Shown here piece by piece: positions 7,245 to 23,353 of a stretch of 38,926 nucleotides of DNA. The DNA lies in contig JAENZQ010000015.1 in the NCBI GenBank assembly GCA_016841185.1, positions 39,397 to 78,322 of the forward strand, written 5' to 3'. The notes beneath the pieces are model-generated. The model searched no databases and was not told the DNA's origin. It was given only the letters and a program-made list of their open reading frames with translations. The translations under genes were made by a program, and so were the position numbers. Every line of letters begins with the position of its first letter. Position 1 is the stretch's first letter. The DNA comes from Anaerovorax odorimutans. GTDB lineage: Bacteria; Bacillota; Clostridia; Peptostreptococcales; JAAYPU01.

Positions 7245-8510
7245 TTATGCAGAGCGCAAGATTATTGTAAAGGTACTGCCTTTTTGATATTCACTTTCAA
7301 CTTTAATTTGGCCATTGTGCTCTTCGACGATCCATTTAGCAATGCTTAGGCCTAAACCAAGACTTCCTTGTGCTCTGGAACGTGTTTTGTCGGCACGGTA
7401 AAAGCGTTCAAATATATGGATCTTATCTTCGTCGGATATCCCGATTCCCGAGTCTTTTATGGTCAATAAAACATCTGCCTTTTCTTTGGAAAGCGTTACA
7501 TGAACGGATCCGGACTCCGTATACTTAAGGGCGTTATCCAGCAGGATCATGATTAATTGCTTGATTTTTTGTTCATCGCCCATGATAAATATTTCTTCTT
7601 CACATATTTTTGTGCTAAGTTGGATTTTTTTCTCTTCATAAAGAGGCCTGATACTGTTAATTGTTTGTTTGAGCAATATGCCTAAATCAATGGTATTTTT
7701 AAAGATCTTTATTTGCCCGGAATCGATTTGTGACAGTTCTAATAATGAGCTTACAATATAACTCATATTATTTGTCTCTTCATAAGCATTTTTAATCCAT
7801 GTATAATGGTCGGCAATAGTGCCATTCTGTTCCTGTAAGGGGATTTCCAGATTGGCTTTCATAACGGTAAGTGGTGTTCTCAGTTCGTGAGAAGCATCGG
7901 CTATGAACCTTTTTTGCTGTTCCCAGGAAGTTTTGATAGGCTCGAGAGATTTACTGGCAAGGAGCCAACTGATACCTGCAAGGAAGGCGATACTTGTAAG
8001 GCCAAGCAGGAGCAAAGTTTTTAAAAGATTATTCAGAATATTTTTTTCCATTCTGATATTCTGACAGATTTGGATAACACCCCATTCACCGTTCTGAGCA
8101 TGAAAATAGGCTGTATATACCCTGTAAGGTTCGCCTTTTATAGTGATTTTTGAAAAAAGGTTGTCTTTTTTAGACTCAAACAATTTATTGATTTCTTTGG
8201 AGCTATCAAGCATAAAATGGCTGTCTTGTGTATTTGAAGAAGTAATATTCAAGGAAGCGTCCCGAAGCAGTATAATAAATAATTCAGGGTGTATATTCAG
8301 ATCATCAGCTTCATCGGGATGGAATGTTCTCTTTTCCGGAATGCGATGTAAAGTTTTAATTTGCCTGGAGAGGCCATGAATGGCTATTTCGGACGATCTT
8401 CTAAGCATATGTCCTGTTTGAAAATAGATGAAACTCGAAAAGATAATAAAAAATACCATCAAGATGATCAGGTTGAATGCAGTGAGCTTCAAATGAAGTT
8501 TTTTAAACAT
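7245..8510 (-). CDS. Sensor histidine kinase of the MacAB-like export operon
   Basis: The 421-residue membrane kinase has two membrane segments (about 10-30 and 163-186) around an extracytoplasmic sensor region of about 130 residues. Then come the dimerisation box with phospho-acceptor H208 (DASHELRTPLTV) and an HATPase domain with DNALKYTESGSV, KDSGIGISDED, ERFYR and GSLGLGLSIAKWI. No HAMP domain is obvious. It is the last gene of the operon, overlapping the response regulator by 8 bp with GGAGGAAG before its ATG, so it should phosphorylate that regulator. The gene order suggests it senses a substrate of the exporter or cell-envelope stress; the signal is unknown. Confidence 0.9.
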   Translation of the reverse strand: MFKKLHLKLTAFNLIILMVFFIIFSSFIYFQTGHMLRRSSEIAIHGLSRQIKTLHRIPEKRTFHPDEADDLNIHPELFIILLRDASLNITSSNTQDSHFMLDSSKEINKLFESKKDNLFSKITIKGEPYRVYTAYFHAQNGEWGVIQICQNIRMEKNILNNLLKTLLLLGLTSIAFLAGISWLLASKSLEPIKTSWEQQKRFIADASHELRTPLTVMKANLEIPLQEQNGTIADHYTWIKNAYEETNNMSYIVSSLLELSQIDSGQIKIFKNTIDLGILLKQTINSIRPLYEEKKIQLSTKICEEEIFIMGDEQKIKQLIMILLDNALKYTESGSVHVTLSKEKADVLLTIKDSGIGISDEDKIHIFERFYRADKTRSRAQGSLGLGLSIAKWIVEEHNGQIKVESEYQKGSTFTIILRSA

Positions 8511-9183
8511 TCGTGTCTTCCTCCAGTAAATATCCTACTCCCCGGATGGTTCTGATGGCAGTTCCGGAGTTTTTTCCCATTTTTTTTCTTAAAAAATAAA
8601 TACATATCTCAATATTATTTTCTGTAACTTCCGATTCGTACCCCCATACTTTATCCAGTATCTGTTCTCTGGTAAAGATTTGATTAGGCCTTCTCATAAA
8701 CATTTCCATAATATCAGATTCTTTTCTTGTAAGGGAAATCTGCTGTTCATTAATTATTAGTTTTTTTGTGTCTCCCAAAAAAACCATATTCCCAACAGTT
8801 AGTTTTTGGCCGTGAAATTCAGAAGGAATCCTTCTGGATAGTGCCCGTATCCTTGCAAATAACTCTTGAGTTGCGAAGGGCTTTGGAAGATAATCATCTG
8901 CACCAAGATCCAGTCCCTGTACTTTATCTTCTATGCTGTCTCTTGCCGTTAACAAAAGAATAGGAGTGGACATTTTTTTTCTCCGTAAATGCTTTAAGAT
9001 TTCGAGTCCGTTCATTTTAGGAAGCATGATATCCAAAATGATCACATCATAGGGAATGGTTTCAGCCATATATAGTCCTTCAGCTCCGTCAAATGTTACA
9101 TCCATATTAATTTTTTCTCTTTTGGCAATATGTTGCAATGCTTGGGAAAGTTTTACTTCATCTTCTACTAAAAGAACTCTCAT
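8503..9183 (-). CDS. OmpR-family response regulator
   Basis: The 226 residues comprise a receiver domain with acidic pair E7-D8, phospho-acceptor D51 (ILDIMLP) and the switch Lys in LPKPFA, then a winged-helix output domain (LTRKESDIMEMFMRRPNQIFTREQ ... IRTIRGVGYLL). It sits between the permease and kinase genes. A direct repeat with 11-bp period overlapping the likely operon promoter (13071-13086) is the expected type of OmpR-family binding site, so it probably controls its own operon. The near-identical spacing before the exporter gene at 19801 raises the chance of cross-control. Confidence 0.9.
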   Translation of the reverse strand: MRVLLVEDEVKLSQALQHIAKREKINMDVTFDGAEGLYMAETIPYDVIILDIMLPKMNGLEILKHLRRKKMSTPILLLTARDSIEDKVQGLDLGADDYLPKPFATQELFARIRALSRRIPSEFHGQKLTVGNMVFLGDTKKLIINEQQISLTRKESDIMEMFMRRPNQIFTREQILDKVWGYESEVTENNIEICIYFLRKKMGKNSGTAIRTIRGVGYLLEEDTNV

Positions 9184-9194
9184 GATCCGCCTCG

Positions 9195-10373
9195 CTATTC
9201 ATACCTGAGCGCATCTACAGGTTTTAATTTCGCAGCCTGATTTGCGGGGTATATTCCGAAAAAAATTCCTACCAGCAGTGAAAACCCGAAGGCAATCAAG
9301 ATAATATAAATGGGTGTTGCTGTAGGCATGCCCGTAAAAAGACCGGCAATATAGGAACCCCCGATTCCTATTATTACACCTATTATACCACCTGAACCGC
9401 TTACAACGGCAGATTCGATCAAAAATTGTTTTAAAATAGAACTTCGTTTTGCACCTATTGCTTTTCGGATGCCTATTTCTCGGGTTCTTTCGGTAACAGA
9501 CACCAACATAATGTTCATGATGCCTATCCCGCCGACGATCAAGGAAATAGCAGCAATCCCTCCTAACATCATAGCCATAGTACCGGTTACTTCGTTAATG
9601 GTTTCGAGCAGGCTGCTTTGATTAAAAATCATAAAGGCATCCTCTTCATTTTTAAAAACCTTCAAAAAATATTGCTCGAGCTGGTATTCTGCTACCCCTA
9701 CTGAGTCTGCATCAGCAGCTTGTATGTAGATTGTGGTAATATTTGATTGTTGCAGGAATCTTTGAGCTGTCTTAATGGGAACCATGATGATATCATCATT
9801 GCTGCCGCCCATGGTGGAACCGCTCTCTTCAAGAATGCCCACAACTTTAAATTTAGTGCCATTAAGAAGGATTTCTTCACCTAAGGGTGAGGCATCACTA
9901 AACAACTCTTCGACAACATCTGCTCCTAACAGGGCGATGTTATTTCTTCCTTCATTATCTAAGGGAACGATGAATCTTCCGCTGCTGACGGAATAGTTTC
10001 TGGTGTATATATAAGATGTATCAATTCCTTGAAGTGAAGTATCATAGGATGTGGTGCCGTATTTAGAAGTAACATTTCCGCTTAAAACAGGAGATGCGTA
10101 TTGAACAGATTCGTAATTCTCCAAATTTTTTATATCTTCATAGGACAGAGCGTTTGTACTGTTTACATAGCCGCTTCTTATGTTGACAGTCAATAAATTC
10201 GAACCCATGCTTTCAATACTGCTGGTGACATTGCTGGTTGCACCTTCTACAAGAGATACCATAATGATAACGGCGGATACACCGATAATGATGCCAAGCA
10301 TTGTAAGAAAGGTTCTCAGCTTGTTTCCCAAGATATCTTTAAAAGACATTTTAAGTGTCATATAAAAATTCAT
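9195..10373 (-). CDS. MacB-like ABC transporter permease
   Basis: The 392-residue permease has the MacB layout: one N-terminal membrane helix (about 18-40, KLRTFLTMLGIIIGVSAVIIM), a large extracytoplasmic domain (about 45-265), then three C-terminal helices of the FtsX type. The conserved SVTERTREIGIRKAIGAKRS loop and the end GIYPANQAAKLKPVDALRYE are typical. It couples to the ATPase encoded just upstream (stop and start overlap as TAATG) and to the adaptor protein. MacB systems export peptides, antibiotics or surface factors by mechanotransmission; the substrate is unknown here. GGAGGGA precedes the ATG. Confidence 0.92.
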   Translation of the reverse strand: MNFYMTLKMSFKDILGNKLRTFLTMLGIIIGVSAVIIMVSLVEGATSNVTSSIESMGSNLLTVNIRSGYVNSTNALSYEDIKNLENYESVQYASPVLSGNVTSKYGTTSYDTSLQGIDTSYIYTRNYSVSSGRFIVPLDNEGRNNIALLGADVVEELFSDASPLGEEILLNGTKFKVVGILEESGSTMGGSNDDIIMVPIKTAQRFLQQSNITTIYIQAADADSVGVAEYQLEQYFLKVFKNEEDAFMIFNQSSLLETINEVTGTMAMMLGGIAAISLIVGGIGIMNIMLVSVTERTREIGIRKAIGAKRSSILKQFLIESAVVSGSGGIIGVIIGIGGSYIAGLFTGMPTATPIYIILIAFGFSLLVGIFFGIYPANQAAKLKPVDALRYE

Positions 10374-11044
10374 TATACTCCCTCCTCTGAAATGATACCA
10401 TCTCTTATGGAGACGATACGGTTTGCCTGAGAAGCCATTTCATTATCATGAGTAATGAGAATGATGGTTTTTCCCTTCTCATGCATTTCTGACATGATTT
10501 TTATGACTTCGTTGCCCGACTTTGTGTCAAGATTTCCGGTAGGCTCATCAGCAAGTAAAATAGGGGGATTGCCGGCAAGAGATCTTGCAATGGCAACTCG
10601 TTGCTGCTGCCCGCCCGATAGTTCTGTGGGTTTGTGATGAAAACGGTCGCTTAATCCTACGTCTGTTAACAGTTGTTCGGTTCGGGCTTTTCTTTCAGCT
10701 GCAGGAATGCCCCTGTAAATCAGAGGTAGTTCCACATTTTCCAAAGCAGATAGTTTAGGCAGGAGATTAAATTTCTGAAAAATGAATCCTATTTTCTCAT
10801 TCCGTATTTCCGAAAGCTGGTCTTCTGAATAATCACTGATTTCTTTGCCATCCAGATAGTAGGAACCTGTTGTTGGAATATCCAAGCAGCCCAATATGTT
10901 CATTAAGGTCGATTTTCCGGATCCACTGGGACCAATAATCGAGACATACTCTCCTTGACGGACTTTTAGAGATACTTTATTCAATACTGTCAGGTCAATA
11001 CTTCCCATTCTATAAGTTTTCGTTACATTTTCAATTTTGATCAT
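10373..11044 (-). CDS. ABC transporter ATP-binding protein (MacB/LolD type)
   Basis: The 223-residue nucleotide-binding subunit has Walker [10 protein letters not shown] (38-46), the Q-loop, signature LSGGQQQR, Walker [13 protein letters not shown] and the switch ITHD. These features and the length match the LolD/MacB N-terminal domain group. I start it at the ATG at 11044 because AGAGGTGA lies just upstream; a GTG at 11053 falls inside that SD. It energises the permease whose start overlaps its stop. In MacB of Gram-negatives the ATPase and permease are fused; here they are separate, as is usual in Gram-positives. Confidence 0.93.
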
Positions 11045-11082
11045 ACTTATCACCTCTAAAAAGCTATTTGTATTGCCGGCTT

Positions 11083-12690
11083 CTATCTGGGTCCGCCGGA
11101 GTTTCGATTTCCGCCTCCCGGAGGACCTCCGGGCATCATCATCATTCCGCCTCTTTGGTTATCCTCGCTGGTTCCCAATTTAGCAGCGTATTTTACAATA
11201 TCGCCTTCGGATAAGCCATCAAGGATTTCGACATAAGTATCAGAAATTAAGCCTACTTTAAGCTGAACAGGTTCTTCGCTGTTTTGTTTCATAGCGATAT
11301 ATTCACCTCTCATTTGGCTGACTGCTTCCACAGGAAGGAGTAAGGAGTTCTTACTTGAATCGATTATAATGTCAGCGTTTACATTCATTCCTGGCTTCAG
11401 TCCTTCTGAAGTAAGAAGTGATAATGTAACGTCAAATGTACTGACACCGCTTGATGCAGTGCCTTCAAGACCTACTTTTATAACTTCTGCTTTAAATTCT
11501 GTGTCGGGATATGCCTGCGTTGTTACAACAGCAGTCTGCCCCTCGTATATATTCTGTATATCATATTCGTCTACAGGTACTACCACTTGAAGAATGTCAA
11601 TATCAGAAATGACGAAAGCAGTGTCATTACTTTCTATGCTGTCTCCTTCCTGGAAGTTTACACTCAATACAGTCCCGGAAATAGGAGATTGCAGTATTGA
11701 TTTTTCTAATTCCTGTGTGTATTGAAGTTGTTTTTGTGTTACAGCAATTTCCTGATTTTGTATTTGAGTTTCTAATGACTCGCTGGAAAACTCAGCAATT
11801 AAATCACCTTTTTTTACATAGTCGCCATCAGAAATATGCAGTTTATCCAATTGAGCGGATGTGTCGAAACGGATGGTACTTCCTGCTTTGCTGGATAATG
11901 AGGCTGTATCGATAGCTGTAAAATTTCCTTTACCGTTTTTTATCGTTATGGTGCCTGTGTCAGATTCTGTGAGTGCACCAGGGTTTTCTATTTCTACAGT
12001 GACTTCATAATATAACGCGCCTTCTGAATAAGGCTTTGCTGTAGTACCTACATCTGTAACAATACCCGGTATACTTTGGTAATAACCAGTCAGGAGTACC
12101 TGTGCCGCATCGCCAACAGAAATACTATTTATGACGGCAGGGTTAACAGGCGCCTTTATTTCCATTTTGTTTCCATTTGTGATTTCGGCAAAAGTCGAGT
12201 TGCTATTAAGGGTATCTCCAATTGAATCAAATGAGAGTTTTACATTGCCTGAAACAGGTGCATATACCTTTAAACTGGATTGAGTGTCTTTCAGATCTTG
12301 CAATTCATTAAGAGCAACTTTGTAATTAAGACGCTGGATCTCCAGATCCGTATCTTGTGTATCGCTTGAGAGCTCCATAAGGATATCATCTTTTTCAACT
12401 CTGTCACCTTCTGAGACTACTACTGTCTCAACTGTGGCATCACTTGCAACTTTGATTTCAGCCCGTTTGCTGGCTTCCAGTGTACCGCTGCTGTTTATAC
12501 TGACATTAATATCGCCTCTTATGACTTCTGTTTTCAGGTATGTAATAGAATCTTCAGTAGCGCTGCTTCTGGTTATTTTAAGTCCAATGCTTCCTATAAT
12601 AATCAGGGTACATACGGACAGCACAATGATTATTCTTTTCTTTCCTGCTTTTTCAATTTTTTTACGTATGTAGTGAAAATTTACTTTCAA
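11083..12690 (-). CDS. Adaptor (HlyD/MacA-like) protein with two barrel-sandwich units
   Basis: This is the membrane-anchored adaptor of the export complex, with one N-terminal helix (about 20-37). At 535 residues it is longer than typical MacA-like proteins because the biotinyl-lipoyl/hairpin unit appears twice: about 50-165 (ASKRAEIKVASDATVETV ... YAPVSGNVKLSF) and about 255-360 (FDTSAQLDKLHISDGDYV ... LQSPISGTVLSV). A beta-barrel/membrane-proximal part follows. The last 22 residues are a tail of Gly, Pro and four consecutive Met. The start is TTG at 12690 with AAAGGAG upstream. It is first in the operon, so its leader (about 350 nt from the likely promoter) belongs to the whole unit. Confidence 0.85.
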   Translation of the reverse strand: MKVNFHYIRKKIEKAGKKRIIIVLSVCTLIIIGSIGLKITRSSATEDSITYLKTEVIRGDINVSINSSGTLEASKRAEIKVASDATVETVVVSEGDRVEKDDILMELSSDTQDTDLEIQRLNYKVALNELQDLKDTQSSLKVYAPVSGNVKLSFDSIGDTLNSNSTFAEITNGNKMEIKAPVNPAVINSISVGDAAQVLLTGYYQSIPGIVTDVGTTAKPYSEGALYYEVTVEIENPGALTESDTGTITIKNGKGNFTAIDTASLSSKAGSTIRFDTSAQLDKLHISDGDYVKKGDLIAEFSSESLETQIQNQEIAVTQKQLQYTQELEKSILQSPISGTVLSVNFQEGDSIESNDTAFVISDIDILQVVVPVDEYDIQNIYEGQTAVVTTQAYPDTEFKAEVIKVGLEGTASSGVSTFDVTLSLLTSEGLKPGMNVNADIIIDSSKNSLLLPVEAVSQMRGEYIAMKQNSEEPVQLKVGLISDTYVEILDGLSEGDIVKYAAKLGTSEDNQRGGMMMMPGGPPGGGNRNSGGPR

Positions 12691-12734
12691 TTATTTCAAC
12701 TCCTTTAACTATCTTTATTATAAATTGTTTATAG

Positions 12735-12800
12735 ATTATGTTATGGATTATGGATTATAGATTATAGACTATGGAATATGGAGTATGGATTATAGGTTAA
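12735..12800. repeat. Degenerate TATGGAT/TATAGAT short repeats
   Basis: About ten loose 7-mer units of the type TATGGAT, TATAGAT and TATGGAA follow each other in the long leader of the export operon. Similar text (ATTATAGATTATAG) occurs near 27845, 28057-28095 and 32367-32380, always outside genes. It looks like decayed tandem repeat DNA. Confidence 0.6.
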
Positions 12801-12810
12801 GGCCTGTGAT

Positions 12811-12897
12811 CCGGTGTCCGGAGTCAGGAGTCTATAGAAAAAGTGTGAGTGTAAGTTGAGGGATGGGTCGCTGTGCCCATCCGCACTTTTCTATAAT
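12811..12897 (+). repeat. TGTAGG-hairpin repeat, copy 2 (long form)
   Basis: CCGGTGTCCG is followed by GAAAAAGTGTGAGTGTAAG and the inverted repeat GGATGGG-N8-CCCATCC (12861-12867 and 12876-12882), then GCACTTTT. An outer pair, TATAGAAAAAGTG with CACTTTTCTATA, encloses all of this. The minus strand of 28134-28207 carries the same text with few changes, lacking about 15 bp after the CCGGTGTCCG block. It lies inside the untranslated leader of the minus-strand export operon. Confidence 0.75.
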
Positions 12898-13054
12898 AGT
12901 TTGTATTTTGTTCTCTATCTCTAATAGTTGAAGTTTTGGAAAAAACCATCCATATCTGTTATATATTATCTTTTATCTTGTTCAACTCCGCTTCCTTCCC
13001 CAATTTCATAGATAGTTCCTTGTAGACCTTGAGATATTACTTCTGCCTGTGTTT

Positions 13055-13086
13055 ATTATAAGAATGGAATCTTAAAGTTTTCTTAA
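13055..13086 (-). promoter_or_regulatory. Probable promoter and response-regulator site of the MacAB-like operon
   Basis: On the minus strand, TTAA-N7-TTAA (11-bp period, plus-strand 13071-13086, full halves CTTAAGA and CTTTAAGA) is followed after 11 nt by TATAAT (13055-13060). The repeat covers the place of a -35 box, and no TTGACA is present, which fits an activator-dependent promoter bound by an OmpR-family dimer. The first start codon is about 360 nt downstream. Confidence 0.65.
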
Positions 13087-13105
13087 GAAAAAAGTAAAAA
13101 AATAA

Positions 13106-13126
13106 CCGTCATATGATATATGACGG
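13106..13126. repeat. Inverted repeat CCGTCATAT-N3-ATATGACGG
   Basis: Two perfect 9-bp arms enclose GAT, 20 bp upstream of the direct repeat of the minus-strand promoter. On the minus strand a T-rich tract follows, as in a terminator, but no gene is placed to use it. It may be an operator for either of the divergent operons. Confidence 0.55.
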
Positions 13127-13314
13127 AAAACGGCTAAAGGGGCGAAATATTTCTATTGAATTTAATTATAAAAAGAAAATGTTTTATACGTTGGTTGAAA
13201 AAGGTTGGATTTTGTCAAAAATTATTAAATACAGATTTCGTATAAAAATATAGTTTATTTTTTTACTGAATGGTTACAATTTTTAAGAGAAAATAGAAGA
13301 AAAGAGAAAAGGCT

Positions 13315-14208
13315 ATGTATGATAAAAAGGATATTGCAATTACGGTAAATGAAGATGAAAAGGCTGCCGTATCCCAAGGACTGGAGTTAATAAAAGCAGA
13401 TGAATTGATTCAGAATAGCTCAACAGTTATTATAGCGCCTAATTGGGTGAACTATAAAAAACCAAATCCGTCATCAGGGGTTACGGTGGGAACGGATACA
13501 TTCAGTTTTATATTGCAGTGGATAAAAAAGAAAGAACCTGTAAGAAAGATTGTTGGTTCAGGCTCGGGAAACGGAGATACATCCGGTGTTATGAAGGCTT
13601 TAGGATATGATCGGATTATAGAAAAAGAAGAATTTGAATTTGTGGATTTTAATACCGGACCTTATATTGACTTGAAATTGAACCATTTTAAACCTAATAA
13701 AATAAAAGTGAATCAGGTGATGAAAGAAGTGACTGTCTTTATTTCTTTTACACAGTTAAAGTTTCATGAAGAAGCTACAATGTCTGCGGCCATCAAGAAT
13801 ATGGCTCTGACCTGGCCTTCTGCTGAAGAACAGGGTGCACCGAAAAAGAATCTGGGAATTCATGAAGATCTGCATGGGTTTATTTGTGCCATGGCAGAAA
13901 AAGTGCCCATTCATTTGTCTATTGTCAGTGCCAACCCGGCTATGGTAGGATCAGGACCTACCAAAGGAATCCCAAAGCATACAGGTATCGTTGTATGCGG
14001 AAATAATCCGGTGGGAGTAGATGCCGTATGCGGCAGATTATTAGGGTTTAAACCACAGGGTATTCATTATCTGTATCTTCTTTCACAAAGGGGAATAGGA
14101 GAAAGCAATATACAACAACTAAATATAAAAGGATTGAGTATTCAGGAAGCTGAAAGGCTTTTTAGCCAAAAGGTTTATGGGGATTCTGTCATTGTTGATT
14201 CTGAGTAG
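13315..14208 (+). CDS. DUF362 family protein
   Basis: The 297-residue protein matches DUF362, seen in TVIIAPNWVNYKKPNPSSG, a GSGSGNGDT segment, the N-terminal half's KALGYD, ISFTQLKFHEEATMSAAIKNM and the C-terminal VCGNNPVGVDAVCGRLLGF. Many family members carry a ferredoxin domain; this one has no CxxCxxC cluster, so it is the short form. It leads a tight operon with two DUF2229-type proteins and an activator ATPase, so a role in redox or cofactor work with them is likely but unproven. SD is weak (GAGAAAAGG, 2 nt before the ATG). A regulatory region rich in AT precedes it. Confidence 0.8.
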   Translation: MYDKKDIAITVNEDEKAAVSQGLELIKADELIQNSSTVIIAPNWVNYKKPNPSSGVTVGTDTFSFILQWIKKKEPVRKIVGSGSGNGDTSGVMKALGYDRIIEKEEFEFVDFNTGPYIDLKLNHFKPNKIKVNQVMKEVTVFISFTQLKFHEEATMSAAIKNMALTWPSAEEQGAPKKNLGIHEDLHGFICAMAEKVPIHLSIVSANPAMVGSGPTKGIPKHTGIVVCGNNPVGVDAVCGRLLGFKPQGIHYLYLLSQRGIGESNIQQLNIKGLSIQEAERLFSQKVYGDSVIVDSE

Positions 14209-17400: not shown

Positions 17401-17895
17401 ATGAAAAATAAAAATGCAGCAGTTTTTCTTATTTTGGCTGGAACAGCCGGAATTATTTTCAATTATTTAGATTTACCTCAAAGAGTTATAGAAAATGCCT
17501 GGGTTTCAGTATTCTGGATTTTGGGATTTGCCTTTGAATTCGGTTATTTTCATGACCCGGCAAGCCGAAAAGCAGGTTTGTTGGTTCCGGGAGGAATATT
17601 TCTGACATTAGGCTTTATATTCAGCTTTTGCGCGGTATTTGGCTATAGGTGGATGGACATCCTCTGGCCGATGTTTATTCTGGCACCTGCAGTAGGTCTT
17701 TTGCAATTGTATTTGTTCGGCGAAAAGAAAAAAGGATTGTTGATTCCCGTTGGAATTTTAGGATTCATCAGCGGAATTTTTCTACTGATGAATCTCGGGG
17801 ATTTGCTGTTTTTTAATATATCTTTTCCTGCAGTTTTGATTGTTTCCGGTGTTTTGCTGATCATTACATCTAAAAAGAAAGAGGAAAAAGAATAG
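17401..17895 (+). CDS. Multi-helix membrane protein, function unknown
   Basis: The 164-residue protein has about five or six hydrophobic helices: 6-24, 33-48, 60-80, 87-105, 113-130 and 137-156. It ends in a KKKEEKE tail and starts with MKNKN, giving a cytoplasmic N-terminus. It loosely resembles the membrane part of LiaF-like or DUF5668 proteins that accompany two-component systems, but I cannot assign it firmly. GAGAGGTG precedes the ATG. It is 71 bp upstream of the response regulator gene, so a sensing or accessory role for that pair is plausible. Confidence 0.6.
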   Translation: MKNKNAAVFLILAGTAGIIFNYLDLPQRVIENAWVSVFWILGFAFEFGYFHDPASRKAGLLVPGGIFLTLGFIFSFCAVFGYRWMDILWPMFILAPAVGLLQLYLFGEKKKGLLIPVGILGFISGIFLLMNLGDLLFFNISFPAVLIVSGVLLIITSKKKEEKE

Positions 17896-17966
17896 TAAAA
17901 TATGTTAAATTATAATAGAATATAATTCTTAGAATAGGTTTTATGGTTTAAAAGAAGGTGAGAGTA

Positions 17967-18680
17967 GTGGAGGATGTTCGTATTCTTGTAGCGGATGATG
18001 AAAAGGAAATAAAATTCCTTTTAAAAAAATATCTTGAAAGAGAAGGGTATAAAGTAGATTGCGTCAATAATGGAAAAGAAGCTTTAAGTGCTGTCAGGAA
18101 TCATTCCTATGAACTTATTATTCTTGATATTATGATGCCGGAAATAGATGGTATAGAAGTATGCAGAATGATTCGAAATCAGACAACAGCTCCTATTTTT
18201 ATGGTCACTGCGAAGGATGATGAAATTGATAAGGTATTAGGATTAAGTATCGGTGCAGATGATTATATTACAAAACCCTTCAGCGTCAAAGAATTAGTTG
18301 CACGAGTAAAAGCACACCTGAGAAAAATATGTTTGTTAAATGATAGTAAGCAGGACATGAAAGAAAAAGATCTCATTGAGTTTCAAAATATTCAAATAGA
18401 TGTTAAAAAGTTTTTAGTCCGTAAAAACAACGTATATATTAATTTGACTGCAAAAGAATTTGAACTGCTTAAATTGTTTGTCAACCATCCGGGGCAAGTT
18501 TTCACAAAGTCACAGATTTTCAAGCAGGTTTGGGGGGATGAATATTTAAGTGACGATAATACGGTGATGGTACATATTAGAAGGCTGAGAAAGAAAATCG
18601 AAGATAAACCTGACAATCCAAAACTGATTCAGACCATATGGGGAATCGGTTATAAGTTTACAGGAGATGGTTTCATATGA
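17967..18680 (+). CDS. OmpR-family response regulator
   Basis: The 237-residue regulator has a receiver domain with D10-D11, phospho-acceptor D54 (LIILDIMMP) and switch Lys in TKPFSVKEL, and a winged-helix DNA-binding domain (LTAKEFELLKLF ... VHIRRLRKKIE ... QTIWGIGYKF). I use GTG 17967 because AAGAAGGTGA ends 5 nt before it; a GTG at 17958 is inside that SD. It overlaps its kinase by 4 bp (ATGA). The ABC exporter 108 bp after the kinase gene has a matching direct-repeat promoter, so this regulator most likely controls that exporter. Confidence 0.9.
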   Translation: MEDVRILVADDEKEIKFLLKKYLEREGYKVDCVNNGKEALSAVRNHSYELIILDIMMPEIDGIEVCRMIRNQTTAPIFMVTAKDDEIDKVLGLSIGADDYITKPFSVKELVARVKAHLRKICLLNDSKQDMKEKDLIEFQNIQIDVKKFLVRKNNVYINLTAKEFELLKLFVNHPGQVFTKSQIFKQVWGDEYLSDDNTVMVHIRRLRKKIEDKPDNPKLIQTIWGIGYKFTGDGFI

Positions 18681-19693
18681 AATCATTTTATTTTTCAATA
18701 AAGACCTTTTCTTTTATTGGATTTTTGTTATCTTTATTTAATCTTTCGGAAAGAATTATTCATAATACTATAAAAATAGTAGATTTTTCATTGCTTTCAG
18801 TTCTTGCTTTATTATTCCTGATCTTATATTTCAAAGAAAGAAAAAATCAGAAAATAGTAAATGAAATTTTAAAAAATGTTGAAAGGATACTTGAGGGAAA
18901 CCTTAACTCACGTGTTTTTGTTACCGGGAATAAAGATTTTTCAAGGTTAGCGCAATTAATAAATGAAATGGCAAAGACTTTCCAAAAAGTAGAAATAGAT
19001 TATAGGCATTCTGAAGAAAGCCGAAGAATCCTCCTTTCCAACATTTCTCACGATCTGAGAACACCCCTGACTTCAATAATAGGCTATCTGGAAGCCCTTC
19101 GGGACGATATAGCAGACAGCAGAGAAGAGCAGGAGGAATATACGGATATAATTTATTCTAAAGCGCTTCGGCTTAAACATCAGGTAGAGAATATTTTTTA
19201 TATGGCTAAATTGGATTCCGATGAAGTTCCTATGGACTTTGAAGTTTTGAATCTATGTGAAGTGGTTCATGAATCTGTAACAGAATTTTTACCGGAAATA
19301 CAAAAGGAAAATATTTATCTTGAGACAGATATCATAGAAGAAAATGCCAGGGTCTATGGAGACAGGCTGGGATTGTTGAGAATCATTAATAACCTTATTG
19401 GAAACAGCCTGATTCATGGAAAAGAGGGCGGTGTTTTGGGAGTAGAGCTGGTTTCACTGTCCGGAGAATATCGGTTGTGTGTCTGGGATAAAGGTCCGGG
19501 AATATCCAAGGAGCACATTGATAACATATTTAACAGACTGTACAGGGCAGACCATGTCAGGAAAAATAACTCGGGAAGCGGACTGGGTCTGGCTATTGCA
19601 AAAAAGCTTCTTGAGAAACATAAAGGAAGGATATGGGCGGAAAGTGAGCCTGATGAAAGGACAAGTTTTTATTTTACACTTCCAAAGCTGTAA
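18677..19693 (+). CDS. Sensor histidine kinase, small sensor domain
   Basis: The 338-residue kinase has two membrane helices close together (about 8-22 and 34-52) with almost no extracytoplasmic loop, a HAMP-like linker (NVERILEGNLNSRVFV), the dimerisation box with H125 (ISHDLRTPLTSI), and an HATPase domain (NNLIGNSLIHGKEGG, DKGPGISKEH, NRLYRADHVR, GSGLGLAIAKKLL). Small-sensor kinases next to bacitracin-type ABC exporters often respond to antimicrobial peptides by way of the transporter; that is family knowledge, and the signal here is not known. Its ATG overlaps the regulator's stop. Confidence 0.9.
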   Translation: MKSFYFSIKTFSFIGFLLSLFNLSERIIHNTIKIVDFSLLSVLALLFLILYFKERKNQKIVNEILKNVERILEGNLNSRVFVTGNKDFSRLAQLINEMAKTFQKVEIDYRHSEESRRILLSNISHDLRTPLTSIIGYLEALRDDIADSREEQEEYTDIIYSKALRLKHQVENIFYMAKLDSDEVPMDFEVLNLCEVVHESVTEFLPEIQKENIYLETDIIEENARVYGDRLGLLRIINNLIGNSLIHGKEGGVLGVELVSLSGEYRLCVWDKGPGISKEHIDNIFNRLYRADHVRKNNSGSGLGLAIAKKLLEKHKGRIWAESEPDERTSFYFTLPKL

Positions 19694-19744
19694 AGTTTCC
19701 CAAAATGGACCTTTGTTTATATTTAAGATTTTTGTAAGAAATGG

Positions 19745-19776
19745 TTAAACTGGATTTAAACAACGTGCTGTATAAT
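19745..19776 (+). promoter_or_regulatory. Probable promoter and response-regulator site of the BcrAB-like exporter
   Basis: TTAAAC at 19745-19750 is repeated at 19756-19761 (11-bp period). TATAAT at 19771-19776 follows the second TTAA after 11 nt. The spacing TTAA-N7-TTAA-N11-TATAAT is identical to that of the minus-strand promoter at 13055-13086. The repeat replaces a -35 box, as expected for an activated promoter. The ATG follows at 19801. Confidence 0.65.
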
Positions 19777-19800
19777 GAACCTATTATAAGGAGGTAAAAA

Positions 19801-20721
19801 ATGGAGACAGTTATTAAAACTTACGAATTATCGAAAATATATGGTAAACAGCACGCTGTCGGTCAAGTCAGTTTAAATGTTGAAAAGGGAGAAATATATG
19901 GGTTTCTGGGAAGGAATGGAGCAGGGAAGACTACTACCATCAGAATGCTCTTAGGCCTTGTAAAACCCACTCAGGGGAGAATTGAAATATTTGGGGAAGA
20001 ATTTTACCAAAACCGGTATAACATACTCAAACGAATTGGTTCTACCATTGAAACTCCCGGTTTTTATCCGGAACTTACTGCAATAGAAAACCTGAAGATC
20101 AATGCAATGCTAATAGGCATAAGTGATGCCGAGGCTATAGAAAAAGCTTTGGATACAGTAGGATTGCTGGACGAGAAGAACAAAATCGTCAAGAATTATT
20201 CCTTAGGGATGAAACAGAGGCTTGGGATTGCCAGAGCAATTCTTCACAGCCCGGAACTTCTTATCTTGGACGAACCAACCCATGGCCTTGACCCTGCCGG
20301 GATTAAAGAGATGAGAAGGCTGATAAAGGCATTGTCGGAAAAAAGGCATATTACCATATTTATGTCCAGCCATATTTTAAGTGAAGTTCAGCAATTGGCT
20401 ACTACCATCGGCGTTATTCATAAAGGAAAGCTTCTTGAAGCGATTTCCTTAGAGAATTTAAGAATGAGAAACCGAAAATATATAGAAATTCAGGTATCTG
20501 ATGACGGAAAAGCCGTCATTCTCTTAGAAAAGAAAATGCATCTGAACGATTATGAGGTCCATGAAGATCGTACTATACGCATATATTCCCATTTAGAAAA
20601 GATTGGAGAAATAAATCGTTTATTCGTTGAAAATGGAATTAACGTTACAAAACTGACATTAAGTGAAGATAATCTGGAAGATTATTTCTTGGATTTGACG
20701 GGAGGTGAAGCAATTGCTTAA
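19801..20721 (+). CDS. ABC transporter ATP-binding protein (BcrA type)
   Basis: The 306-residue ATPase has Walker A GRNGAGKTT (37-45), signature YSLGMKQRLGIARA, Walker B LLILDEPTHGLDP and the switch SSHILSE. A C-terminal extension of about 90 residues (from about 215) is typical of bacitracin and lantibiotic self-protection ATPases. It works with the permease encoded directly downstream, most likely exporting or displacing a membrane-active peptide. AAGGAGG precedes the ATG. The two-component genes directly upstream point to inducible resistance. Confidence 0.9.
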   Translation: METVIKTYELSKIYGKQHAVGQVSLNVEKGEIYGFLGRNGAGKTTTIRMLLGLVKPTQGRIEIFGEEFYQNRYNILKRIGSTIETPGFYPELTAIENLKINAMLIGISDAEAIEKALDTVGLLDEKNKIVKNYSLGMKQRLGIARAILHSPELLILDEPTHGLDPAGIKEMRRLIKALSEKRHITIFMSSHILSEVQQLATTIGVIHKGKLLEAISLENLRMRNRKYIEIQVSDDGKAVILLEKKMHLNDYEVHEDRTIRIYSHLEKIGEINRLFVENGINVTKLTLSEDNLEDYFLDLTGGEAIA

Positions 20722-21457
20722 CCTGTTGTATATAGAGATCCTCAAACTGAAGCGTTCTAAATTGTTTATGGTCAGCTTATTAGGTGCAATGGTGGTGCCT
20801 GTTATGATATTTTTTATGCTCACCAGCATGCGGGCACGAAATCCTCAAAGTATCATTACTTTTGAAAACTATTTCAGGCAAACAGACATGTTTATTCTTT
20901 TAATGATCGGAACACTGCTGTTTGGGCTGCTAACGACTTATGTATTTAACAGAGAATATCAGGAGGAGACTTTGAAAAATCTTCTTACAATTCCTGTTGG
21001 AAGAAAGAGTTTGATCATAAGTAAATTGTTGGTTGTTCTGATGGTTATTTTGGCTTTGATGCTTTTTTCTTTTTTATTGACATTGATTTTGGGGTTGATT
21101 GGACATTTTGAAGAACTGAGCGTAGAACTACTGATCAGATGGGGACAATTATATCTGTACTCAGGACTACTGCTGTTTCTGTTAACACCATCAGTTATTC
21201 TGATAACACTTCTTTTCAAAAACTATATTGCAGCCATAGGATTTACCATTGCCGTTTCTGTAGTAAGTATTATTGTTGCACAATCCGAGTATGTTTTGAT
21301 TTACCCGTGGACAGTACCTGGGGTAATAGCCTTGCCTGATTTATTCGTAGAAAACGAAAAGTTTACAATGATCCATAGTTGGGTTTCTTTAGGATTGACT
21401 TTTATTCTTCCTTTAACAGCCAGTATTATTTATTTTGAAAAAACAGACATTAATTAA
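20714..21457 (+). CDS. ABC-2 type permease (BcrB/lantibiotic immunity type)
   Basis: The 247-residue permease has about six membrane helices: near 17-35, 55-75, 100-130, 142-165, 170-195 and 220-240. The N-terminus LNLLYIEILKLKRSK is typical of this immunity-permease group. I place the start at TTG 20714, 5 nt after GGAGGTGA; a GTG at 20705 lies inside the SD. It overlaps the ATPase gene by 8 bp, so the two are made together. A fold-back element and a terminator follow. Confidence 0.85.
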   Translation: MLNLLYIEILKLKRSKLFMVSLLGAMVVPVMIFFMLTSMRARNPQSIITFENYFRQTDMFILLMIGTLLFGLLTTYVFNREYQEETLKNLLTIPVGRKSLIISKLLVVLMVILALMLFSFLLTLILGLIGHFEELSVELLIRWGQLYLYSGLLLFLLTPSVILITLLFKNYIAAIGFTIAVSVVSIIVAQSEYVLIYPWTVPGVIALPDLFVENEKFTMIHSWVSLGLTFILPLTASIIYFEKTDIN

Positions 21458-21459
21458 AT

Positions 21460-21612
21460 GAGATTGTTGAAAAGTTAATATATAATCTTTTGAATAAACC
21501 TGTATAAATAATCATCCGTATCGAATTTGGAGAAAAGGGAAAACCAAACTCTCAAAGTATTTATACAGGCTTATTCATTTTTAACTATGCAATGAGTTTT
21601 TCAACAGTCTGA
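21460..21612. repeat. MITE-like fold-back element, copy 1
   Basis: About 150 bp with partly inverted ends (GAGATTGTTGAAAA at 21460-21473; TTTTTCAACAGTC at 21597-21609) and a strong internal pair, AATAAACCTGTATAAATA (21493-21510) with its complement at 21558-21575, one mismatch. No ORF is inside. The ends match the element at 27002-27151. It sits directly after the permease stop. Confidence 0.6.
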
Positions 21613-21645
21613 AAATAACAGGATTTTATCCTGTTATTTTCTATT
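21612..21645 (+). terminator. Rho-independent terminator
   Basis: AAAATAACAGGA pairs with TCCTGTTATTTT around TTTTA (12-bp stem), followed by CTATTTTTT. It ends the BcrAB-like operon downstream of the fold-back element. Confidence 0.75.
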
Positions 21646-21712
21646 TTTTGGTAGCAAATGAAATAATAATCTGTTAAATTAGAATCAAGAAAAGTATTTT
21701 AAGGGGGACATT

Positions 21713-23353
21713 ATGAAAAAGGAAAAGTTTGATAAACTCTTTTTTAATGGAAATTTCTATTCTTCCGATGAAAAGGAAATAGAATATCTTGGGATTACCG
21801 ATGGAAAAATTGCGGCGTTGGGAAGATTAAAAGATACAGCACAAGTAGATGAATGCGCCGATGAAGTCATAGACCTTGAAGGCAGGAGTGTATATCCGGG
21901 TTTTACGGATGCACATATTCATCTGTTGGCATATGCTCAGAAAAAGCTGTATGAAGTATCTTTAAGTGGTTGTACTTCAAAAGAGGAAGTAAAACAAAGA
22001 ATAAGGGCACATATTGTTAAAAATGATATTAAGCCGGGAGAGTGGGTAATCGGAGCAGGCTGGAACCATGAATTATTTGAGGATAAAAGTTATCCGGACA
22101 GATATTTACTGGATGAAGTAACCGAAGAATGTCCTGTATTTCTGATAAGAACCTGTTATCATATTTGTGTTGTCAACAGTGAAGCCTTGAAAGTATGTGG
22201 GATTGATGAAAATACAATTTTTCCTGATGGCGGGAAAGCCGACAGGGACAAAGAAGGCAAACTTACCGGGGTGCTCAGAGAAAATGCTATGAGTATGATT
22301 CAATCACAGATTCCAAAGATCCGGTCCAAAGAAAAAATGAAGCATATTATTCTGGAAGGGTGCAATGACCTGGTTTCAAAAGGCATTACAACCGTACATG
22401 CGGACGATTTCTGTTTTGTTGAAGATAGAAAAATGCTATGGGAAGTCTATAAAGAGCTGGCTGAAAAAAATGAGCTCCCTTTGAGAGTGGTTCTCCAACT
22501 CAGAGTTGCATCCTTAGAGGATATTTCTGAATATAAAGAGTTGGGAATGAAATCATGGGTCGATGTAAATTATTTAAGGATAGGACCTGTGAAGATAATA
22601 GCAGATGGCTCTTTGGGATCAAGAACAGCTGCCTTAGAAGATTCTTATTCGGATGATCCGGGCAATAAGGGGATTATGCTAAGCACAGAGGCAGAATTTG
22701 ATATAATAATTTCCGAGTGTTTTAAAAATGAGTTTGATGTCTGTGTACATGCTATCGGGGACAGAACAATGAGAACCCTTCTTGATATTTTTGAAAAACA
22801 TGAGAAAATATACAGAGAAAAAGGTCTAAGACCTTCGATCATTCATTGTCAGATAGCATCGGAAGCTATATTGCACAAATTTAAAACATTGGATATTATT
22901 GCAAATATCCAGCCTGTGTTTGTCTGTTCGGATTGGAATCTTGCAGAAAGCAGGGTGGGAGCAGAAAGATTACAGTATAGTTATAGTTGGAGAAAAATGA
23001 TTGATAAAGGCATTAAGTGCGCCGGCAGTTCTGATGCACCGGTTGAAAGCTTTAATCCTCTTTATGGCATTTATGCGGCGGTGAACCGTCAGGACCTGTC
23101 CGGTATGCCCGAAGGTGGTTGGATGCCGGAAGAGAAATTGGATTTAAGTGAATCTATCTTTATTTTTACGGAAGGGGCAGCATATTTGTCCCATGAAGAG
23201 AATCAAAAAGGAAGTTTTAAAAAAGGAAACTACGCTGATTTTGTGATATTGTCCGATGATTTGTTTAAAATAAATCCATATCAGATCAAGGATGTTGAAG
23301 TAGAAGCTACCATAATTGGAGGACAATTAAAACCGGTTATGCAATTGATTTAG
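21713..23353 (+). CDS. YtcJ-like metal-dependent amidohydrolase
   Basis: The 546 residues match the YtcJ/Amidohydro_3 group. A metal-binding H68-x-H70 (PGFTDAHIHLL) follows the N-terminal beta part. Later come KIIADGSLGSRTAAL, CVHAIGD, IHCQIAS and the C-terminal GSSDAPVESFNPLYGIYAAVNR, ending in a beta-sandwich segment (GNYADFVILSDDLFKINP). Family members hydrolyse amide or amidine bonds, several unknown; the substrate here cannot be predicted. No signal peptide, so cytoplasmic. AAGGGGG precedes the ATG. The nitroreductase gene follows after 49 bp and may be co-transcribed. Confidence 0.88.
   Translation: MKKEKFDKLFFNGNFYSSDEKEIEYLGITDGKIAALGRLKDTAQVDECADEVIDLEGRSVYPGFTDAHIHLLAYAQKKLYEVSLSGCTSKEEVKQRIRAHIVKNDIKPGEWVIGAGWNHELFEDKSYPDRYLLDEVTEECPVFLIRTCYHICVVNSEALKVCGIDENTIFPDGGKADRDKEGKLTGVLRENAMSMIQSQIPKIRSKEKMKHIILEGCNDLVSKGITTVHADDFCFVEDRKMLWEVYKELAEKNELPLRVVLQLRVASLEDISEYKELGMKSWVDVNYLRIGPVKIIADGSLGSRTAALEDSYSDDPGNKGIMLSTEAEFDIIISECFKNEFDVCVHAIGDRTMRTLLDIFEKHEKIYREKGLRPSIIHCQIASEAILHKFKTLDIIANIQPVFVCSDWNLAESRVGAERLQYSYSWRKMIDKGIKCAGSSDAPVESFNPLYGIYAAVNRQDLSGMPEGGWMPEEKLDLSESIFIFTEGAAYLSHEENQKGSFKKGNYADFVILSDDLFKINPYQIKDVEVEATIIGGQLKPVMQLI

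Follow-up and report, generated by a model that had tools for sequence, protein, structure and literature searches.

Related regulators and exporters

In activation by response regulators of the OmpR/PhoB family, an 11-bp direct repeat occupies the position of the -35 box. The CiaR box of streptococci is presented, in the available portion of one report (PMC3091779), as NTTAAG-N5-TTTAAG with an important G and a distance of 10 bp to the -10 hexamer. The sites bound by WalR/VicR are given in an excerpt of another report (PMC4168254) as TGTWAH-N5-TGTWAH, and the SaeR site appears in a partial source text as GTTAAN6GTTAA. Lantibiotic transporters of the CprABC/LanFEG type are associated with a two-component system and, in the section of the source at hand (PMC5786555), combine one ATPase with two different permeases.

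Literature searches returned no report joining TTTAAGG, a response regulator, Clostridi and an ABC transporter. A search for a TGTAAG direct repeat together with a response regulator and an ABC transporter returned the VicR paper only, and the phrase 'four direct repeats' was absent from the best literature matches listed. The promoters described below are probably real and of a known kind, and what is new is the presence of a CiaR-like box in this bacterial order and of an array of four half-sites before an ABC transporter gene.

Two exporter operons with a common promoter layout

The window, which is the whole stretch of 38,926 nucleotides analyzed here, carries the sequence TTAA-N7-TTAA-N11-TATAAT without mismatch at positions 13086-13055 on the minus strand (site 1) and 19745-19776 on the plus strand (site 2). 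The two sites are 6.7 kb apart and their spacers are unrelated, as originally predicted, and Pfam matches and gene positions confirm that each copy precedes ABC exporter genes linked to an OmpR-family system. The two response regulators, here called RR1 and RR2, belong to the OmpR/PhoB family, each having a receiver domain and, after it, a Trans_reg_C winged helix, with scores above the curated cutoffs for PF00072 and PF00486. Both sites probably act as real promoters, yet they differ in kind, with a box of two half-sites at site 1 and an array of four at site 2. The explanation we favor, and consider likely on the strength of the sequence comparisons, is that the two promoters are activated separately and that each belongs to one of the two-component exporter systems. 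Their equal spacing would then arise because OmpR/PhoB-family activators have a common geometry with an 11-letter rhythm, and so a matching promoter layout need not imply a common regulator.

The original prediction had treated the pattern as a possible mark of one joint response, recognizable by a genome scan and by an excess over chance. Sites 1 and 2 are the only exact copies in the 3.56-Mb genome. Two copies within one window are unusual because a first-order Markov model of the window predicts only 0.007 per window and 0.6 per genome, and with A+T-rich intergenic composition 0.05 are expected per 38.9 kb. With up to two mismatches, the window holds eight places compared with a shuffle mean of 3.27, and eight were reached by one of 100 shuffles. 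On a wider scale, tolerating up to one mismatch yields 20 places in the genome (both sites counted) versus 24 for a reversed-pattern control, and 60 genomes, this one among them, have 86 exact matches versus 68. Given these counts, the bare pattern is no genome-wide regulon signature, and a shared regulon defined by such a scan is rejected. The meaning of the pattern must therefore rest on conservation. Three of the 84 matches outside this genome share a strand with RR1 homologue genes and lie 31, 63 and 97 bases upstream of them (in genomes G051, G036 and G004, respectively).

Half-site pairs of both types also fall below their controls across the genome, with 13 matches versus 31 for TTAAG-N6-TTAAG and 16 versus 32 for TTAAG-N5-TGTAAG-N6-TTAA with up to two mismatches. 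This lack of enrichment counts against the explanation we favor. A TATAAT follows the first type at the right distance only at site 1 (among the 13 matches less L299, on a short contig), and the second type occurs exactly only in the site 2 array.

Site 1 and operon 1

Site 1 reads CTTAAG-AAAAC-TTTAAG-ATTCCATTCT-TATAAT on the minus strand. The half-sites occupy 13082..13087 and, 11 bp further on, 13071..13076, and the -10 hexamer (13055..13060) begins 10 bp past the second. As far as the available portion of the CiaR report defines that promoter type, site 1 fits it in full, with both G nucleotides present and 10 bp to TATAAT, whereas the pair next to the -10 hexamer of site 2, GTTAAA-N5-TTTAAA, carries neither G and falls outside the type.

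The genes that follow are closely packed on the minus strand. They code for an HlyD/MacA-like adaptor (11083..12690; Pfam HlyD_D23, HlyD_3), an ABC ATPase (10373..11053; ABC_tran), a MacB/FtsX-type permease (9195..10373; MacB_PCD, FtsX), RR1 (8503..9183; Response_reg, Trans_reg_C) and the histidine kinase HK1 (7245..8510; HisKA, HATPase_c). Operon 1 thus shares with MacAB-type exporters an HlyD-type adaptor, an ABC ATPase and a MacB-type permease, but its ATPase and permease are encoded separately, and the regulator and kinase genes come next on the same strand.

The -10 hexamer is separated from the adaptor start (12690) by 364 bases in the window and by 54 in G001, a genome from another genus of the same family. 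Dispersed intergenic repeats form a mosaic that makes up most of the leader (12716..13050, minus strand). The leader matches at least 41 places in its own genome (itself included) and at least 39 in G001; these are lower bounds, as 40 candidates were scored of 150 and of 110, respectively. A riboswitch or other known RNA in this long leader was rejected as a candidate, since searching 12600-13320 against Rfam up to E = 1 returned nothing. From site 1 to the adaptor gene, the minus strand showed no terminator-like sequence. A second promoter-like match (12744-12717) lies nearer to the adaptor gene within the leader, which is a point against our explanation; such matches are no commoner than in shuffles. 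Directly upstream of site 1, at 13106-13126 on the minus strand, there is a hairpin resembling a terminator (CCGTCATATATCATATGACGG) and followed by a T-rich tail, which may shield the promoter from read-through.

Site 1 is conserved in G001, whose adaptor is 75% identical to that of operon 1. Both half-sites, the 5-bp spacer between them and TATAAT are identical, and 5 of the 10 bases before TATAAT agree in the alignment. The ABC ATPase, permease and RR1 genes of operon 1 are absent from this locus (L100; contig C71, 13773-16612), where the adaptor gene fuses into HK1 at about codon 8, and RR1 had no match at E<=1e-50 in a search of the G001 genome. The retention of a regulator's site without the regulator detected at this threshold argues against our explanation. 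Either these genes were lost recently by deletion, or the locus is misassembled.

Boxes like site 1 recur upstream of RR1 homologues. A search of the order at E<=1e-50, with at most 11 candidates scored per genome (on which absences also rest), gave 82 matches. We counted 81 after dropping L113, where a contig end shifts the coordinates; L274 took the place of L255, which is too short, and the set includes the RR1 of the window, whose upstream region is coding DNA. Within the 300 bases upstream, 15 of the 81 genes have NTTAAG-N5-NTTAAG on their own strand (shuffle mean 0.145), and 14 have it with a -10 hexamer at 9-11 bp (shuffle mean 0.015). Boxes on the strand opposite the regulator gene were found in 21 of 81 regions, 10 having boxes on both strands, which suggests divergent target genes. 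With either strand accepted, 25 of the 81 genes have a strict box with a -10 hexamer at 9-11 bp within 300 bp, and its absence from the 300 bp before the other 56 also counts against our explanation. A frequent form is TTTAAGG-N4-TTTAAGG. In a loose search that required only TTAA-N7-TTAA and a -10 hexamer, 58 pairs were retrieved, and the sixth base was G in 36 of their first half-sites and in 45 of their second ones.

Site 2 and operon 2

Operon 2 lies on the plus strand downstream of genes for RR2 (17958..18680; Response_reg, Trans_reg_C) and the histidine kinase HK2 (18677..19693; HisKA, HATPase_c). It codes for an ABC ATPase (19801..20721; ABC_tran) and an ABC-2 type permease (20705..21457; ABC2_membrane_4). 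From position 19722, the promoter region reads TTTAAG-ATTTT-TGTAAG-AAATG-GTTAAA-CTGGA-TTTAAA-CAACGTGCTG-TATAAT. The four half-sites (19722..19727, 19733..19738, 19744..19749 and 19755..19760) follow one another in 11-bp steps, and the -10 hexamer (19771..19776) begins 10 bp past the last of them and ends 24 bases before the ATPase start. The two TTAA cores of the original prediction are those of half-sites 3 and 4 and form the downstream part of the array. Overlooked at that time were the two further half-sites at 19722 and 19733 and the sixth base of the compared half-sites, which is G at site 1 and A at site 2.

The repeat of hexamers every 11 bp is also the arrangement given for WalR/VicR, and half-site 2 is TGTAAG. 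However, site 2 has four half-sites, mostly TTTAAG or TGTAAG, and judged by the consensus in the excerpted WalR/VicR report, only TGTAAG begins with TGT and it ends in a G that TGTWAH disallows. The SaeR site, in the form given by its partial source, is likewise an 11-bp direct repeat of TTAA cores.

The array is conserved across four families. Searching 247 genomes of the order for orthologues of the operon 2 ATPase (E<=1e-100, at most 9 candidates scored per genome) identified the gene in 14 genomes, including that of the window. The first half-site pair of the array is present upstream of all 14 (300 shuffles gave a mean of 0.2 and a highest count of 2). Judged by eye, the window, L141 (where the array is placed at -272), L142, L143, L152 and L153 clearly have the half-sites of steps 22 and 33 as well as a -10-like hexamer at a distance of 10 or 11 bp. 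The third half-site is displaced by one base in L145 and L147-L150, which have a poor TATCCT at 10 bp and, in some cases, a better hexamer at 15 bp; in L146, both the third and fourth half-sites are off by one base; and L144 and L151 have a weak fourth (TAAAAT) and a weak third half-site (ATACAG), respectively. Thus, an 11-bp direct repeat in place of the -35 box, as in OmpR/PhoB-type activation, is supported by conservation at each site separately.

With a matrix built from the arrays of the 13 other genomes (one duplicate merged), the array is the top match in the window at 25.5, with the runner-up at 11.3. Under a matrix of half-sites 3 and 4 alone, the pair from the window ranks 135th, so the array is at its least typical in the pair matched by the original prediction. 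This poor agreement with the orthologues also weighs against our explanation. The conserved array nevertheless offers a handle for finding the second system in other genomes.

No array was found in the 350 bases before RR2 in the window, and a loose pattern applied to 14 RR2-like genes in 14 genomes gave only A+T-rich matches in four (L337, L338, L340 and L345), none taken as an array. Because of these absences, RR2 seems not to control itself through such an array.

Operon 2 resembles the CprABC/LanFEG-type transporters in having an ABC ATPase and an ABC-2 permease beside a regulator-kinase pair. However, there is one identified permease gene (20705-21457) rather than the two different ones mentioned in the section of the source at hand; the next plus-strand ORF of at least 80 amino acids, at 21713, is a 546-amino-acid ORF. 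The best NCBIfam match of the ATPase is the lantibiotic-protection ATPase TIGR03740, with a score of 239.9 that is below the cutoff of 309.75, and the permease scores 33.6 against TIGR03733, for which the cutoff is 117.2. A scan of genome contigs with the permease found no relative.

The region 17896-21712 contains RR2, HK2, the ABC ATPase and the permease, and its flanking genes at 17401 and 21713 are adjacent in G001 (the match to the latter judged by eye). This adjacency indicates that the second system was gained or lost as one block.

Regulators and their sites

Co-occurrence suggests a tie between RR2 and the array. An RR2 homologue (48-62% identity) is present in all 13 of the other genomes that have the ABC gene, at 1.0-1.4 kb from it in ten and at 20-40 kb on the same contig in three. 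A kinase gene lies between the two in all three genomes that were read (G034, G012 and G051). The recognition helix common to the 13 RR2 homologues has the general form N(T/N)(V/I)MV(H/Y)(I/V)(R/S)RLR, and that of RR1 is NNIEICIYFLRKKM, with RR1 homologues mostly having N(N/H)(V/I)EVYISFLRKKL. RR2 also gives strong matches to the YycF and VanR models that remain below the cutoffs. RR1 is 39.6% identical to CiaR and 36.0% identical to RR2, and RR2 is 30.9% identical to CiaR. A quick tree places CiaR on the RR1 side of the RR1/RR2 split (support 0.93) but outside the RR1 homologues, and its recognition helix differs from that of RR1. At best, RR1 may resemble CiaR in its working mode.

Each arrangement also appears to occur without the other system. 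G001 keeps site 1 while operon 2 is absent (no match for the permease, and none for the ATPase at 1e-100), and in 12 of the 13 other array genomes, with up to 11 candidates scored in each, RR1 went unmatched at E<=1e-50. On these two grounds the arrangements appear to be independent.

We therefore favor two separately activated promoters, in a model that builds on the observed sequences, conservation and co-occurrence and takes binding, phosphorylation, activation, dimer number and the pairing of regulators with sites from what is known of the family. Phosphorylated RR1 would bind CTTAAG-N5-TTTAAG head to tail, replacing the -35 box 10 bp before TATAAT, and recruit RNA polymerase for transcription of the adaptor, ABC ATPase, permease, RR1 and HK1 genes. 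Because the RR1 gene is within this operon, RR1 would thereby raise its own level. Phosphorylated RR2 would bind the four half-sites as two dimers in 11-bp steps, the last of them 10 bp before TATAAT, and drive the ABC ATPase and permease genes; RR2 and HK2 themselves would be expressed from another promoter without such an array. If so, likely binding sites can be read from the sequence for two uncharacterized two-component exporter systems, and the promoter pair would be suited to studying how sister regulators avoid or allow cross-binding.

A matrix of RR1-type boxes (52 training sites with any sixth base, a broader selection than in the strict counts) bears on such cross-binding. Site 1 scores 12.6 and ranks only fourth in the window, a further point against our explanation; the places above it include its own opposite strand and one inside the adaptor gene. 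The GTTAAA/TTTAAA pair of site 2 scores 4.1 (rank 45), compared with 11.7 for the pair upstream of it (TTTAAGA-N4-TGTAAGA). Given the closeness of 11.7 to 12.6, cross-binding at the upstream pair is predicted to be possible, and this is the form in which the idea of a shared regulator survives. An extended reading holds that the array is a conserved promoter code for the ABC exporter across several families and that phosphorylated RR1 also loads it, priming the second exporter. Such loading is conceivable because the upstream pair is close to the RR1 box, and we regard this reading as tentative and rather unlikely. If true, two neighboring systems would be linked through the half of site 2 that had been overlooked.

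We also consider it unlikely that RR1 or RR2 alone binds and activates both promoters and joins the exporters in one response. The common geometry of sites only 6.7 kb apart and the RR1-type score of the upstream pair are in its favor, as is the rank of site 1, third in the window, under a matrix of the first RR2-type pair. However, each arrangement is kept in genomes without the other system, the recognition helices differ, RR1 and RR2 both have sites at their own exporters, and the repeats compared by the original prediction are not equivalent. Neither one regulator for both sites nor a common half-site recognized at both, the two options it offered, is thus supported.

Quite unlikely, in our estimate, is a third OmpR/PhoB-family regulator, such as a WalR-like or another CiaR-like protein, acting at one or both sites. 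Several regulators do have similar half-sites (TGTWAH for WalR and NTTAAG for CiaR, as given in the partial sources), the nearest RR2 homologue is 20-40 kb from the ABC gene in three genomes, and site 1 persists in G001 with RR1 undetected. Against this stand the RR2 homologues in all 13 other genomes with the ABC gene, adjoining it in ten, and the boxes of the site 1 type that precede genes of RR1 homologues. A coincidental resemblance in A+T-rich intergenic DNA, with no function at one or both sites, would agree with the control-level pattern counts, but is highly improbable because site 1 is conserved in G001 and the array before all 14 orthologues, irrespective of how the pattern was chosen.

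Other repeats before adaptor genes

Adaptor homologues in two other genomes (L023 and L028, in G007 and G052) are preceded by other tandem 11-bp repeats. Judged by eye, these lie before -10-like hexamers about 50-180 bases upstream of the adaptor genes and consist of ATCACAAAACT occurring twice and of TTCACA-N5-TTCACA.
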